Shown here piece by piece: positions 7,699 through 25,064 of a DNA stretch of 40,404 nt; position 1 is the first letter of the stretch, and each line of letters opens with the position of its first letter. The position numbers were made by a program, and so were the translations under genes. Under the pieces are notes generated by a model, which ran no database searches, was not told where the DNA came from, and worked only from the letters and a program-made list of their open reading frames with translations. Origin of the DNA: Parcubacteria group bacterium LiPW_15 (GTDB lineage: Bacteria; Patescibacteriota; Minisyncoccia; UBA6257; 2-01-FULL-56-20); assembly GCA_007375645.1 (NCBI GenBank), contig VMER01000003.1:145553-185956 (forward strand). Direction: 5' to 3'.

Positions 7699-9534
7699 AT
7701 GTCCTCTTTCACAAAAAACCTCTTGCTCGCGATATTCGGCCTCTTTACAGTTTCTGTTGTCTTCTCTTCTTTCTTTTCCGCAGAGAACAATCCGGCGAAA
7801 GTTACCCTAAGCGATCTTTCCGCGAAGATCGAGGCCGGACAGGTAAAGTCCATTTCGGTCCAAGAAAACGACTTGACCGCGATACTTCAGGACGGCAGCA
7901 AAGTTATAACCAAAAAAGAAACCGATCTGGGGATCACGGAAACGTTTAAAAATCTCGGCGTTTCCGCGAACACGCTTCAAAAAGTTAATATCTCCATTGA
8001 CGAAGCTAGCGGGTTCTCATATTGGATGGGATTGATATTGCCGACCCTTTTGCCGCTTATCTTCATCGCTTTGATGTTCTACTTTATGTTCCGCCAGGCG
8101 AAGGGAGGAATGAATCAAGCCTTCAGTTTCGGCCGTTCCAATATAAAACTTTCGAATTTCGGCAAAGAACGCGTGACCTTCGAAGATGTCGCCGGACTCA
8201 AAGAAGCGAAAGAAGAATTGATCGAGGTTGTGGATTTCCTCAAAAATCCAAAGAAGTTTTTGGATATCGGCGCGCGGATTCCCCGGGGCATACTACTGGT
8301 CGGCCGTCCGGGAACCGGAAAAACTCTTTTGGCCCGCGCGGTTGCCGGTGAAGCCAACGTTCCATTCTTCACCATCTCCGCATCTGAATTCGTGGAAATG
8401 TTCGTAGGCGTCGGCGCCGCGAGAACCAGAGATGCTTTTATGGTCGCGAAGAAAGCCGGTCCCTCTATATTGTTTATTGACGAGATAGATGCCGTCGGAC
8501 GCCAGCGCGGCGCGGGCATGGGCGGAGGAAACGACGAACGGGAACAAACCTTGAACCAGATCCTTGTGGAGCTTGATGGTTTTGACCGCGAAACCCAGGT
8601 GATAGTCTTGGCTGCCACCAATCGCCCGGATATCTTGGACCCTGCACTCCTGCGACCCGGCCGCTTCGACCGCAATGTTGTTTTGGATCTTCCCGACATT
8701 AACGACCGCGAAGCGATACTCAAGATTCACGCCCGCGGAAAACAAATGGAAAAAGGCGCGGACCTCAGGAAGGTTGCCGCCCGAACCCCGGGCTTTTCGG
8801 GCGCGGATCTTGCGAACCTGATGAACGAAGCGGCTCTGCTTTCCGCCCGTCGCAACAAAAAGATAGTCGGGAACGACGAGCTTCTGGAATCTATTGAAAA
8901 AGTTATTCTCGGGCCGGAACGAAAGGGCCGAGTTATCTCCGTCAAAGAAAAAGAAGTGACTGCTTACCACGAAGGAGGCCACGCGCTGGTTGCGGCGGCG
9001 ATAAAGAATTCCGATCCGGTGCACAAAGTTTCCATCGTCTCTCGCGGCATGGCCGGAGGCTATACTATGAAGCTCCCCATCGAAGAACAGCGTCTTCGGA
9101 CCAAAAAACAATTTATGGCCGATCTCGCGATGATGCTCGGCGGATTCGTCGCGGAAAAATTAACCTTTAAAGATGTCTCAACCGGCGCTTCGAACGACCT
9201 GAAGGAAGCCACTTCTCTCGCTCACGACCTGGTCACCAAATACGGCATGAGCGAAAAGCTCGGCCCCATGACTTTCGGCAACACCAACGAAATGATCTTC
9301 CTGGGCCGGGAAATGACCACGGAAAAGAATTATTCCGAAGACGTCGCGAGAAAGATCGACGAGGAGGTTTCTTCGTTCATTGGCCGAGCCTATGAGGCCG
9401 CAACCGAGATATTAACCTCCAAGAAAAAAGTCCTGGACGCGATAGCCAAGAAACTTATAGAAAAGGAAACCCTGGAACAGGAAGAGTTCGCGGCGCTCCT
9501 TAAGCCGTTCAAAATTAAACTGGTAGAAGTATAA
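7699..9534 (+). CDS. ftsH: ATP-dependent zinc metalloprotease FtsH
   Basis: 611 aa; two N-terminal TMs, [18 protein letters not shown], Walker [37 protein letters not shown] zinc motif. Confidence 0.98.
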
Positions 9535-9592
9535 GCAGACCAAAAATGGCCCACTCTTGGGTCGTTTTTGGTATTTTCATTTTTCCCCGCCC

Positions 9593-9904
9593 TTACTTGG
9601 CATAGGCGGCTTTTATAACTTCAAATTCGTTGCTTAGCGCCGTTTCGATCTTCTCGAGCAAACCCGGAGTCTTCGCGGCGAGCTCTTCCACCGCTGCTTC
9701 TAATTTATCGGAGTTTGTCGATTCGGACAGGCCCTCCGCGTCTTCCAGCGAAAGGTTAAGAAGAAGCGTCTCGATTATTATTTTGTCGAAATGCTCCAGC
9801 AGCTTGTCCGCCACTTCTTCCGCTTCGCTTTCCGGAAGGTTTATTCCCAAAGACGCCAAGAGTTCCCTTTTTTCTTTTTTCAAAATCAGTTCGGATTTAT
9901 CCAT
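9593..9904 (-). CDS. Small acidic hypothetical protein
   Basis: 103 aa; start overlaps the end of the 9897-13655 gene by 8 nt; acidic helical composition. Confidence 0.75.
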   Translation of the reverse strand: MDKSELILKKEKRELLASLGINLPESEAEEVADKLLEHFDKIIIETLLLNLSLEDAEGLSESTNSDKLEAAVEELAAKTPGLLEKIETALSNEFEVIKAAYAK

Positions 9905-12900
9905 TTTTGTTGGAATTTTTCTTTATGAACTCGACAATTTTCTTTTCGGAAGCGCCTTTCTTGATAAGTAAGTGTTCCCTACGTAGGTTTGAAAAATGAT
10001 TGTAGACGATAATCGAATTCGGCAAATCTCCCGGCGCAAATCCACCTTCTGTAATGGCTTTTTTGACAGTAGCCGCTATTCTTTTTATTTCCTCTGCTCC
10101 AATTATCATGTCGTCGGGAAAAGATATCTGCGGCAAAGATGGATTTTCTGCGTTGAAAGATTCTTGCTCCTTTATGGCCTCCTGTCGTTTTATCATCCTC
10201 TCGCTTATTTGTTCGATGCGCCCCTTGCCAGCGAGCCAACCGGCTACGTCCCCTAAATATTTTTTATCTACCTCAATCTCTCCGCTCGCAAGGATCCTGG
10301 GTTTCTGCCGGGTCAACCCGCGCATGGATATTTTGAGTCCACGCACGTCCTTAACAACTTCTTTTATCTCCGCGACACTCTTCTCAAAAGAGACTGCGTC
10401 TAGGGCGGTAATTCCCATGTCGTCCGCGACAGAAAGGGATATTCCGGACTCGCTGCGAATCTTTGTAACCAATGCTTGCACCTCATCACTCGTTATAACT
10501 TTTTCACTTTTCAGTCGTTTCACCTCCCTTCTTTCTGCCAGGTCATCCAAAAGCATGCCCCAAAAGCGTCCGCCATAGATTCCACCCCCGATCGAAAGCA
10601 CGGTTCCGCCGACAGCCAGGGCAATCTTCTCTGCGACACTCCCCGTCTTTTCACCTGCAACTTCTCGGCCAAGAGCCTTAGAACCCTCTTTGGCAACTAC
10701 TTCTCCTGCTTCAACAACCATCTCTTTTGGTGCCTCTGCCGCCGCTTCAGCCGTAGCCGAAACCGCTCCTTCATGCGCTTCGCGGAGCGCCCCTGCGGCC
10801 GCTTCTTTTACCTCTTCCACAACTTCATCGCTCGTCAGATGGCCGATAGCTCCCTCGTAGAAATTATTTTCGCCGGATGCCAGGGTCGCGCCTTCGTTTT
10901 TCATAAACTCGATGGTTTCCGAGGAAAGAGAGCTACGGACAATGCCGGACAAGTTTTCTATCTGTTTATCGGAAAGCATATCTGCCTTTTCGAGCGCCTC
11001 ATATATTCTCTCCGCGGGAATAGCAATGTGTTCTCCGGGGCGAAGATTTGCCACACCCACATCCGCCAGATTCTTCTGCAGCCAATCTTCCGCGTAAACC
11101 ATTTTTTCCGGCGGGAAGTCATTTACGATTCCCAGTTTTGAAAAATTCGCGACCAGGTCATGGATTCCCTTCCTGGCCACATGAGTCAAACCATCGCCTT
11201 GCTGGACCTCAACCGCAAAATCCCGGCGCATAATTTCTCCGAGCATTTCGCCGACATTCTTTTTCGCCATCGCGTTCGCGGCCGCAAAACTTTTCTCCAC
11301 GGCTCCGTTCGCTTCCGGGCCCAAGACCGCAACCGCCGCTACGCCTTTCTCCGCAGTCGCACCCGCTTTTTCTTCGGCAACTATGGCCGCTCCTTTTTTC
11401 ACCGCGCTCTCCACCGCATCGCTTTCCGCGCCAATGTGGTCCGAAATAAATCCGGTAATAGCGCCTCCGATCGCACCGCCAAAAGCGCCGATGACCGCCC
11501 CGCGCAGAGCCGCACCGCCCAGCTTCTTCCACTCCGCCGGTCCGCGTTCAAGCGTTATGCCTTTTATCAATTTTTTGATATCTTTCTTTTCTGTTTTACT
11601 GATGTCCTCCGCGTTTTTCTCTGCGATCTTCAATATTGCGACAATCTTATCCTTACCCTCCAATCCCGCGGTTTCTTTTTTGGCATCCAAAAGAGTCTTG
11701 GCCGCGCGCAGTTCTTCCGCGACCACAGCAAGTTCCTCTTCATCTCCGGAGATTTTCTTTTTTTCGTACAGATCGTTTATTTTCGCGTAGACCAAAGCCT
11801 TCTCCTCGTCGGTCTCCGCCGCATCAAACTGGTCGATCACGCTCCCCGCCCGAAACTTCCTCTTTTCTTCCCAAAGTTCTTTTCCGAATCCGACAGCCGC
11901 TCCGGCCACGGCTCCCGCCGCTATCCCGACCGCCAAATTGCTTCCCAGGGCGTAACGAAAAGATTTTTTGATAAGCATTCTCGCCGCTCCGCCGGAAACT
12001 ACGCCACCCGCAAGCGACATCCAACCGCCTTTTTCGGTTATATATTTTTTTATTTTGGCGGTAAACCTGCTCGTGGATTCCTCGGTTTGAAGTTCTTTTG
12101 CGAGATTCTCTTTTTCTTCCTCGCTCGCGGCGGGAATCGCCGCTTCCACCGCGGCCGCTACCGCCACCGGGTCAGCCAAAACCTTCTCGGCCTCTTCGGC
12201 CGCAACTTCCGCTATTTCTGTTGGGGCGAGTTCTTTTCCTTCGCTTGGCTCCGCTTCCGATTCCGTAACTTCGCCGTGCGGCGCTGCTTTTATCCCGTGA
12301 AGATTCGGCCACGCCTCAACCATCTTGTTCGAATGATCGATAAAATCCTTGAACTTTTTTGTGCCAAATTTTTTTCTTTTTTCCTCCTCGGACAAACTAG
12401 GCGAAAGTAATTCTTTTTGCGCCTCCTCGATGTCTCGCAATAGAGTTCTGACCGCATTTTCAAATCCCGGCCATTTATTCTGCCCTTTTAGTTCTTCTAA
12501 TCTCGTTCGCAGGTTTTCCGCCTGCTCGGTTATTTTGCCTAAATCCGCACCCCTCCATTCGGCCTCCTCGGCTTTTTTCTTTTCAATTCTTGCGAAGGTA
12601 TCTCCGATTACGCCGTATTTATTTCGATAGGCATCGGCCTTCTCCGGATTTTCCAAAACAAATTTTTCCCAGGCGGCGCGAGAAACCGGGCCAAAGGTCG
12701 CGCTCCACTCGTCAGGTTCGGGGCTTATATTCCCGACTGCACGCTGAGTGGCTTTGGTTATTTCATCCTTGAGCGCAGCAATTGCCGGATCTTCCGCCGG
12801 ATTTTCATATAGTTTGACCTCGGTTGGCTTTGCGCCAGTCTCCGCAGCCTTAGCTTTGTCGTCAGCAATTTCCGGCACCGCGCTCTTTCCTTCCGCTCTA

Positions 12901-22815: not shown

Positions 22816-23079
22816 TCAATCGCCGGTGTCGCAGTGGCAGGCCCAGGGGGCACCGCTCCACCGCGAACCCTGCTCGTTCCGGGCGACCGCCCACCACCCG
22901 GTGGGCTTCGGTGTCTCGCGACTGCGGTCGACGCCGCAGCGCTCGCACCGAGCCTCGGCCCGGTGGAACTCGGGATGCCAGAGCTCGTTTCGCTCGTCGG
23001 GAGGACACGCTTCGCGCGCCTCCTCCTCGGTCCTGAACGGCCCGCGGTGGTACCCGCGATGTTCGATTGCTACGCTCAT
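22816..23079 (-). CDS. Small Cys/His-containing protein, possible zinc-binding (87 aa, islet gene)
   Basis: MSVAIEHRGYHRGPFRTEEEAREACPPDERNELWHPEFHRAEARCERCGVDRSRET...WACHCDTGD; AAGGAGAAC SD upstream of ATG at 23079; promoter and terminator present. Confidence 0.75.
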   Translation of the reverse strand: MSVAIEHRGYHRGPFRTEEEAREACPPDERNELWHPEFHRAEARCERCGVDRSRETPKPTGWWAVARNEQGSRWSGAPWACHCDTGD

Positions 23080-23202
23080 CTCTGTTCTCCTTCTCCCTTT
23101 CAGGATTCTGGCAATTTTTGGGCAACCCCGCACCACAAACGATCAGAATTCTGAAAAGGAGATTGGTTTGCTAAAAGAACTGTTAAACCCTGTGACCCGG
23201 AG

Positions 23203-23239: not shown

Positions 23240-23665
23240 CTATGCGATATTCGGATAAAATCTCGCGGAGCTTTCGCCGTCCTTTTCTTCGATCTTTATT
23301 GCCAAAAGATCCAACTGACAATCCCCTGCAAGTTCCGGATGCGAGCCCATATACCAGTCAGCCATTTTCTTCATTTTTTGGAGCTTCGCCCGGGAGAGAT
23401 TGTCCTCGGGCTCCATACCCGACCAATCCGCATAACCGGCCGAGATGGTTTTGACCTCCACAAAGTGGATGACCCCACCCCCATCGCTCGCCAGGACATC
23501 TATCTCCCCGAATTTCTCCCGAATATTTCGGCCAAGAATTTTGTGCCCAAGCCCAACCAGGTATTTGGCCGCCAAATCCTCTCCGCGCTGACCGAGTGAT
23601 TTTTCTTCAGGATTTAGTGTTGAGCGCATACACACTAATGATATAATCATTATGTAAATCAGCAA
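23240..23665 (-). CDS. yraN: YraN/UPF0102-family endonuclease-like protein (start possibly at an internal Met)
   Basis: LGQRGEDLAAKYLVGLGHKILGRNIREKFGEIDVLASDGGGVIHFVEVKT is the UPF0102 core (GxxGE, GEIDxI, FVEVK). Confidence 0.93.
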   Translation of the reverse strand: MLIYIMIISLVCMRSTLNPEEKSLGQRGEDLAAKYLVGLGHKILGRNIREKFGEIDVLASDGGGVIHFVEVKTISAGYADWSGMEPEDNLSRAKLQKMKKMADWYMGSHPELAGDCQLDLLAIKIEEKDGESSARFYPNIA

Positions 23666-23669
23666 ACAT
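23653..23669 (+). repeat. Direct repeat R1 (TGTAAATCAGCAAACAT), includes the first bases of the endonuclease start codon
   Basis: Exact match to R2 (17 nt) and R3 (16 nt). Confidence 0.95.
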
Positions 23670-24132
23670 GCCCAAACAAATCCAAAAAATATCTCACGAC
23701 TATATAAGGGGCCTCGTCGACGGTGAGGGCTGTTTCACTTTTTGCACAACCAAATACATAACCGCAAGCGGCAAGACCGTGATTAAGAAAATCCCGACCT
23801 TTTCGATAGCGATGAACGAGCGCGATCTACCCCTGATTCTGGCGGTGCGGGACGGCCTGGGATTAAAAAATAAAATCTATACAAACAAAAACAATCACCA
23901 TCGGGATGGCTACAAAAGAGGTAAATTGTCGATGCTTATTGTTCGAGAGTTCGGAAATCTTAAAAATGTAGTTGTGCCATTTTTTTACAAAAAACTGCAT
24001 GGCTATAAAGGAACGCAATTCTCGGATTGGCTGGAGGCAATAGGAAACGATCCAGATGTTCCGGAAAGCTTTAAGTTTATCTATAAAATTTATAAAGCCG
24101 GCTTTTATGACAAAAATCCAAAATTTGAATAA
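23668..24132 (+). CDS. LAGLIDADG-family homing endonuclease
   Basis: 154 aa; DYIRGLVDGEGCFTF matches the LAGLIDADG helix; FSIAMNERDLPLILAVRDGLGLKNKIY, LSMLIVREFGNLKNVVVPFF...KGTQFSDWLEAI are typical of single-motif LAGLIDADG endonucleases. Confidence 0.93.
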   Translation: MPKQIQKISHDYIRGLVDGEGCFTFCTTKYITASGKTVIKKIPTFSIAMNERDLPLILAVRDGLGLKNKIYTNKNNHHRDGYKRGKLSMLIVREFGNLKNVVVPFFYKKLHGYKGTQFSDWLEAIGNDPDVPESFKFIYKIYKAGFYDKNPKFE

Positions 24133-24135
24133 CTT

Positions 24136-24152
24136 TGTAAATCAGCAAACAT
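24136..24152 (+). repeat. Direct repeat R2 (TGTAAATCAGCAAACAT)
   Basis: Begins 4 nt after the endonuclease stop codon. Confidence 0.95.
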
Positions 24153-24166
24153 TGGTAAGTTCAGAT

Positions 24167-24182
24167 TGTAAATCAGCAAACA
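24167..24182 (+). repeat. Direct repeat R3 (TGTAAATCAGCAAACA)
   Basis: 31 bp from R2 (start to start). Confidence 0.95.
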
Positions 24183-24245
24183 AATTTTTTGACGAAATTA
24201 AAAGAATGTAGGTTTTACGGGCCGATTGGGTTTGGCCATTCTGTC

Positions 24246-24271
24246 GGAGACAAACACTTTTGTTTGTCTCC
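24246..24271. repeat. Perfect inverted repeat
   Basis: GGAGACAAACA cttt TGTTTGTCTCC. Confidence 0.85.
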
Positions 24272-24520
24272 AGTGTTTATATGAACGATTTTCGTCGTTT
24301 TTTGATATTCGGCAACCCACCTATATATATTGCCGGTTTGCCGAATTAAATTGCCGGATTATTAGAGATAAACATTCGACAAACATTTATCCCTCCCATC
24401 TCGGGCAAAATCTCTTCCCCGCAGGAGCCTTCGGAACCGTCTGTCCCGCACGCCCCGAGTGGCATTGTTTTGCCGGGGGCCCTCGGAGCCCCGCCCATCC
24501 CTACCCAACCCTAAGCGAGT

Positions 24521-24639: not shown

Positions 24640-24722
24640 GCGAGCGACTAGTTTTCCACAACTAATCCCCAGTATCCTTAAAATTTATTTGCGCCGTAAA
24701 ACAAAAGCCCTATAATTGACCT

Positions 24723-25064
24723 ATGCTCACAAAAGAGGAAATCGAAAAATATCAGTCCGCCCTTGAACAGGAACGAAGATTGTTGGTTGCCGAAATAGAA
24801 AACGAGAAACCCGCGGACTTCGGCTCCGAGCCGGATGGCGAACTCGAAGAGGAAGCTGATGAGTCGGAAGATTTTGCGAACAAAGTCGCGATCAAGGATA
24901 CATTGAAAAACAGGTTGAGCGAGATCGATATGGCTCTCGCCCGAACAAAGGATGGAACCTATGGCGTCTGCGAAAAATGCGGAAAGGATATCGAAAAGGA
25001 AATCTTAGATATCGTTCCCGAATCCAATCTCTGTGAAACCTGCAAAAAACTGGTAGCGGAGTAA
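24723..25064 (+). CDS. DksA/TraR-type C4 zinc-finger protein
   Basis: 113 aa; MALARTKDGTYGVCEKCGKDIEKEILDIVPESNLCETCKK. Confidence 0.93.
   Translation: MLTKEEIEKYQSALEQERRLLVAEIENEKPADFGSEPDGELEEEADESEDFANKVAIKDTLKNRLSEIDMALARTKDGTYGVCEKCGKDIEKEILDIVPESNLCETCKKLVAE

Follow-up and report, generated by a model that had tools for sequence, protein, structure and literature searches.

Introns and inteins are known routes by which homing endonucleases exploit conserved genes. Phage-type free-standing endonucleases (e.g., those of T4) belong to other catalytic families, and WhiA is a fused LAGLIDADG-HTH regulator which has no active site. The targets of WhiA include chromosome segregation genes (PMC3781837). 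The compact LAGLIDADG enzymes which multimerize are held to sites of palindromic symmetry (PMC3943268).

The canonical parS is TGTTTCACGTGAAACA (PMC7383237); it is also given as TGTTNCACGTGAAACA and lies near oriC (PMC7022226). In Caulobacter, residues R173 and G201 of ParB bear on the specificity for parS versus the Noc site, and the two sites differ at bases 1 and 6 (PMC7383237).

The window, i.e. the whole stretch of 40,404 nucleotides analysed from Parcubacteria group bacterium LiPW_15, contains a small LAGLIDADG ORF bracketed by repeats (Table 1). We lean, with a little better than even confidence, towards reading it as a free-standing gene for a homing endonuclease, situated within a parS array at or near the replication origin, in Ca. 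Liptonbacteria and related Patescibacteria.

The endonuclease ORF and its repeats

The product of the ORF (154 residues) contains the Pfam domain PF00961 (LAGLIDADG_1), with a score of 39 bits compared to a cut-off of 23.1 (E 1.6e-9). Among solved structures it matches LAGLIDADG meganucleases, with I-PanMI as the top PDB entry (E 2.9e-10). The active-site-type motif GLVDGEG corresponds to residues 15–21, and E20 is aligned to the DGEG motif of I-PanMI. The domain score above the cut-off and the acidic active-site residue place the protein in the LAGLIDADG homing endonuclease family. It has one LAGLIDADG motif, and palindromic sites are present at the locus. A structure prediction made from two sequences (pLDDT 48) was too poor for a fold search.

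The initial annotation placed the ORF between a divergent yraN and a dksA-like gene, with no intron or intein host gene around it. This placement is confirmed by Pfam, which identifies the neighbours as a UPF0102/YraN protein and a DksA/TraR zinc-finger protein; the ORF is intergenic, and the window has no match to an Rfam intron or other RNA. An endonuclease of a group I intron or an intein is thus ruled out. Cargo of a phage or a plasmid was also rejected: records of phages and plasmids gave no match, and viral contigs a single one at 31%. Next to yraN, an ORF of 106 aa on the minus strand (window positions 22816–23136) has no Pfam match.

The 16-mer TGTAAATCAGCAAACA is present three times, always on the plus strand, as had been annotated. 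Further copies with up to two mismatches were sought in the window and in the 791,784-bp genome and none was found, so the 16-mer is not a common genomic repeat; the shuffled window gives 0.01 such matches on average. In length and in one arm, the 16-mer agrees with the palindromes described below, the other arm being changed from TGTTT to TGTAA. R1, R2 and R3 are read as one-armed forms of these parS-like palindromes, which belong to the replication origin.

The transcription start predicted from the promoter-like sequence coincides with the beginning of R1, and a −10-like hexamer is also found 3–5 nt before the site in G011, G012, G033 and G055. An autoregulatory site over the start codon had been suggested. 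R1 does cover both the ATG and the predicted transcription start, which makes the role of an operator plausible, and the suggestion stands to that extent only.

Table 1. Features of the locus, in window coordinates.
Feature	Positions	Strand	Basis or remark
yraN (UPF0102)	23240–23629	−	PF02021, E 1.1e-16; divergent neighbour
Promoter-like TTGAGC-16-TATAAT, extended TG	23620–23647	+	Consensus match only, no commoner than in shuffles
R1, parS-variant 16-mer TGTAAATCAGCAAACA	23653–23668	+	Last base is the A of the ATG (23668)
Single-motif LAGLIDADG endonuclease ORF	23668–24132	+	154 aa, TAA stop; PF00961, I-PanMI match, orthologue alignment
R2, parS-variant 16-mer	24136–24151	+	Direct copy, starts 4 nt past the ORF stop
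R3, third parS-variant 16-mer copy	24167–24182	+	Sequence match
TGTAGGTTTTACGG motif	24208–24221	+	Several relatives have it, or a similar motif, in the origin intergenic region
Outward-facing hairpin GGAGACAAACA-CTTT-TGTTTGTCTCC	24246–24271		Contains the AAACAnnnnTGTTT element
Clustered TTGCCG/CGGCAA repeats	24318–24360		Origin region
DnaA-box-like TTTTCCACA	24652–24660	+	One mismatch to TTATCCACA; one match with ≤1 mismatch in the intergenic region
dksA/traR-like zinc-finger gene	24723–25064	+	PF01258, E 1.1e-5; right border of the origin intergenic region

Palindromes and replication origin in the yraN-dksA gap

In the relatives which lack the gene, the gap between yraN and dksA contains 16-bp palindromes of the form TGTTT-NNCGNN-AAACA, usually in two to seven copies (range 0–7). 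Of the 38 family genomes, 23 contain the palindrome, nearly always in this gap, and the reversed control gives zero. In G025, the array is away from any detected yraN. Across the class, yraN marks the parS/origin locus, since it adjoins parS-like palindromes or the LAGLIDADG orthologue in many genomes; the position of the dksA/traR-like gene is kept in most of the family.

G013 is the only single-contig relative (840,672 bp). Five of its seven TGTTT(6)AAACA sequences fall in the gap, and the chance of finding at least five of seven in 1 kb is about 5e-14. Its cumulative GC skew reaches a global minimum at 9.2–9.8 kb, within the gap (9,224–10,096), and a maximum at ~402 kb; this pattern marks the gap as the replication origin, or as adjoining it. 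G013 thus has several palindrome copies clustered near oriC, as located by the skew minimum in the gap that holds the array. The skew of the contig of the window drops until about 168 kb and is then flat, the gene being at 169.2 kb. In the carrier G033, the skew minimum is 26 kb away from the gene locus.

Other elements recur in these gaps. TTGCCG/CGGCAA occurs 90 times in 22 family intergenic regions, compared to 2.9 expected, and is present in 20 of them; the cluster is perhaps an origin element. A DnaA-box-like sequence is found in the gap of about half the family genomes. In 19 of the 22 family gaps, the array is bordered by one AAACAnnnnTGTTT hairpin, whose orientation is opposite to that of the parS-like palindromes. 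A TGTAGGTTTTA-type motif, which in the window is the one at 24208–24221, adjoins the array in several genomes.

The exact canonical parS TGTTTCACGTGAAACA is found in other families of the class, single or in small arrays, and it adjoins yraN in G072, G059, G134 and G246. No close canonical parS is found in G013, where even the best matches differ at 3 of 16 bp. A chromosomal ParB is encoded in all 29 good family genomes. The ParB residues were assigned via the R173–G201 spacing in the aligned HTH region: R173 is kept in the family, and G201 is replaced with a serine in nearly all ParBs (once with a threonine). G201 is kept in most genomes with the canonical parS and in the carriers of f79, where the centre of the sites is still CACGTG-like; the exception is G134, with a serine at position 201 despite its canonical parS. 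In the family palindromes, bases 1–4 are kept and bases 5–6 are free, which fits the change at residue 201, the residue that reads the variable position. The presence of canonical parS beside yraN in sister families and the G201S change in ParB make it very probable that the family palindromes are parS, the ParB centromere.

A ParB co-adapted to altered sites was considered for the carriers and rejected: by eye, no DNA-binding residue obviously splits carriers from non-carriers, and the ParBs of G033 and G034 show little difference in the DNA-binding part.

In G003, G014 and G017 (L062, L065, L086), several palindromes are extended by arms which differ yet are complementary, forming inverted repeats of up to about 36 bp, as if these arms had been selected for pairing. 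Large conserved hairpins were not retained as an explanation of the palindrome arms, as they are present in these genomes and not systematic in G013.

Orthologues, bracketing sites and loss of palindromes

A close orthologue (E < 1e-15) is found in 7 of the 38 family genomes (G000, G008, G011, G012, G026, G032 and G033). It is located beside yraN in all seven, with the dksA-like gene on the other side in six. A profile search of 384 genomes of the class gave eight more orthologues, from five more families (f3, f5, f6, f31 and f79). In total, 14 of the 15 orthologues, which represent six families, are beside yraN; the exception is G337, where no yraN lies within 8 kb of the gene. When distant matches are included, there are 16 in the 384 genomes, about 4% of the sample. 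A more distant LAGLIDADG ORF in G098 (L214) is followed by the apparent 3′ end of a 16S rRNA gene and is probably of the ordinary rRNA-intron type.

The acidic active-site residue is kept in 13 of the 15 orthologues. In G012 (NQKG) and G128 (EGVG) (L205/L206), the catalytic acid is lost and the reading frame is still open. The LAGLIDADG motif of G026 is aberrant (EREG).

Sites with at most two mismatches were counted at the start and stop sides of the 15 orthologues and in background windows. They are present at the start side of 13 and at the stop side of 12, compared to 5% of the background windows. With the consensus TGTNNNNCGNNAAACA, which is limited to the positions common to parS and the TGTAA variant, and with at most one mismatch, the counts are 10 and 11 of 15, compared to 0.5% of the background windows; this enrichment is somewhat optimistic, because the consensus was picked after some sites had been seen. 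The arm and centre of TGTNNNNCGNNAAACA are those of the palindromes of gene-less genomes. In eight orthologues (R1 of the window, G032, G033, G011, G055, G128, G313 and G202), the end of the site lies no more than 2 nt from the start codon. Downstream, the site is a direct copy in G000 and G055 and an inverted one in G008, G012, G032, G033, G202 and G414. In G033, the exact sequence TGTAANNCGNNAAACA occurs only twice in 283 kb, and these two copies are the brackets. Of the minimal homing unit with its own repeats which the initial annotation had envisaged, the free-standing unit stands, as does the attachment of the repeats to the ORF; the repeats as excision or insertion scars do not.

The seven family carriers have 0, 0, 0, 0, 0, 1 and 1 palindromes in the gap, compared to 7, 6, 0, 5, 5, 4, 3, 2, 3, 2, 3, 2, 2, 1 and 6 in the 15 gene-less loci (Mann-Whitney p = 0.0004, uncorrected for genome relatedness). 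Palindromes are thus present in 14 of 15 gene-less yraN-dksA loci, and TGTAA variants in none. The contrast holds within a genus: the gene-less G034 has six palindromes in the gap, and its congeners G032 and G033, which carry the gene, have none. The presumed target is thus altered or disrupted in carriers, as expected of a homing element. The only family carriers with a perfect palindrome, G012 and G026 (one each), both have a damaged or odd LAGLIDADG motif, a coincidence based on small numbers which would occur by chance once in 21. G351 has an intact motif and one palindrome, which runs counter to exclusion. The gene-less G009 has no palindrome either, which shows that an array can disappear where the gene is absent or has been lost.

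The gene of G000 is 59% identical to that of G055, a genome from a different order, compared to 37% for yraN. Conversely, G202 and G313 belong to the same family and show 37% identity for the gene versus 65% for yraN. The patchy presence of the gene, and an identity which is out of step with that of yraN, fit horizontal movement. The hypothesis of a single family clade was tested on the gene tree with a borderline outcome (p 0.036 to 0.068); the tree is poorly resolved, too weakly to serve as proof of transfer.

Possible origins of the locus and comparison with known systems

The analysis shows the family of the protein, its place at the origin and the parS-like array, the sites that bracket it, its recurrent slot and the depletion of palindromes in carriers; dimerization, cleavage, homing by repair, escape of the TGTAA sites from cutting, ParB binding to them and repression are inferred. 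If the ORF is a homing endonuclease gene lodged in the parS array, the one-motif protein would act as a homodimer on palindromic TGTTT-NNCGNN-AAACA. For such a protein in an array of palindromes, the symmetry rule (PMC3943268) makes the palindrome the simplest target, and the presumed targets would be parS-like palindromes such as TGTTTAGCGCTAAACA and TGTTTGTCGACAAACA. A gene-less array would be cut, then repaired from a carrier chromosome via the common yraN and dksA flanks; the repair would copy the gene in and replace the palindromes. The remaining sites, TGTAA..C..AAACA, would spare the carrier from self-cleavage by virtue of their altered arm. They would keep one intact ParB half-site, so that segregation would still work; one arm may suffice for the host, since half-parS is bound by some ParBs (PMC7022226). 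Because R1 spans the start codon and the point where transcription is predicted to begin, a protein bound to it would probably also repress the gene. We propose more tentatively, at slightly less than even confidence, that the nuclease attacks parS and drove the rewriting of the array, and that carriers live on a half-altered parS which would be usable by ParB and uncuttable.

An endonuclease with another target might also have landed by chance in a gap that tolerates it, in which case the brackets would simply be ParB sites of the host that serve as an operator, and drift would have removed the palindromes. The origin-proximal gaps of the family are indeed long, and G009 shows that a locus without the gene can likewise be without palindromes. 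A chance landing is difficult to reconcile with the use of one slot by 14 of 15 orthologues from six families, and with the presence of sites directly at the start and stop codons, at a frequency far above background. Drift accounts poorly for carriers of which five of seven have no perfect palindrome and the other two have one, and for an arm change which is never found without the gene. We consider this scenario unlikely.

Hardly less unlikely than a chance landing, and ranked just below it, is domestication on the model of WhiA: the protein would have ceased to home, and by binding TGTAA..AAACA it would serve the origin or chromosome segregation, or repress its own gene. The acidic residue is kept in most orthologues (13 of 15), presence is patchy, the gene is missing from the congener G034, and carriers have ParB, so that nothing needs replacing; these observations argue against domestication, even if one slot and one relation to the sites are kept over six families, the site spans the promoter start and the ATG, and the two orthologues without the catalytic acid (G012, G128) stay open frames.

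Excision and insertion of the unit by direct-repeat recombination, leaving one copy as a scar, is very improbable and largely refuted: R1 and R2 are exact direct repeats whose recombination would delete 483 bp, as annotated, and G055 has nearly the same direct arrangement, but no searched genome combines a single TGTAAATCAGCAAACA with the absence of the ORF, a lone TGTAAATC site is present at none of the gene-less loci, the empty site with one repeat that was sought in relatives gives way to arrays of 16-bp palindromes, and the inverted downstream copies (G008, G012, G032, G033, G202, G414) cannot give a deletion.

If the favoured reading, a homing endonuclease gene in the parS array, is true, the conserved sequence that is exploited is the segregation site of the chromosome near the origin, which is indispensable to every cell. 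A nuclease and ParB would then naturally compete for one palindrome, and this conflict would account for the lost or lopsided parS of some Patescibacteria. It raises the question of whether one altered parS arm can block the nuclease while ParB still loads. The gap beside yraN also offers a way to find the origin and the centromere in uncultured bacteria.

Among the openly licensed papers searched, none connects parS with homing endonucleases or with the candidate phyla radiation. The enzyme belongs to a known family, and what appears to be new is its target and its setting. Like phage-type free-standing endonucleases (T4; PMC3943268), the window ORF is not in an intron, and its spread would be expected to occur by double-strand-break repair via flanking homology. 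Like WhiA, it encodes a bacterial LAGLIDADG-related protein; unlike WhiA, this protein has no HTH domain match and keeps the active-site residue.

The family palindromes resemble the parS of chromosomal ParABS systems (TGTTTCACGTGAAACA; PMC7383237, PMC7022226) in being 16 bp long, with TGTTT/AAACA arms, in several origin-proximal copies and in the presence of ParB, and sister families have the canonical form at this yraN locus. They differ from it by a degenerate centre (NNCGNN) and by the ParB G201S change; in carriers, moreover, one arm is TGTAA and the perfect palindromes are gone or nearly so.

The closest known counterparts of the protein are the free-standing LAGLIDADG homing endonucleases (LAGLIDADG_1; homodimers such as I-CreI; I-PanMI), with which it shares the DGEG sequence and its acidic residue, a size below 200 aa and a single motif. 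The gene also resembles theirs in its patchy distribution, its decayed copies and its conserved, presumed host target. Unlike the known LAGLIDADG genes, the window ORF is surrounded by no intron, intein, or rRNA or protein host gene; it lies in a non-coding, multi-copy centromere/origin array, bracketed by altered target-like sites.
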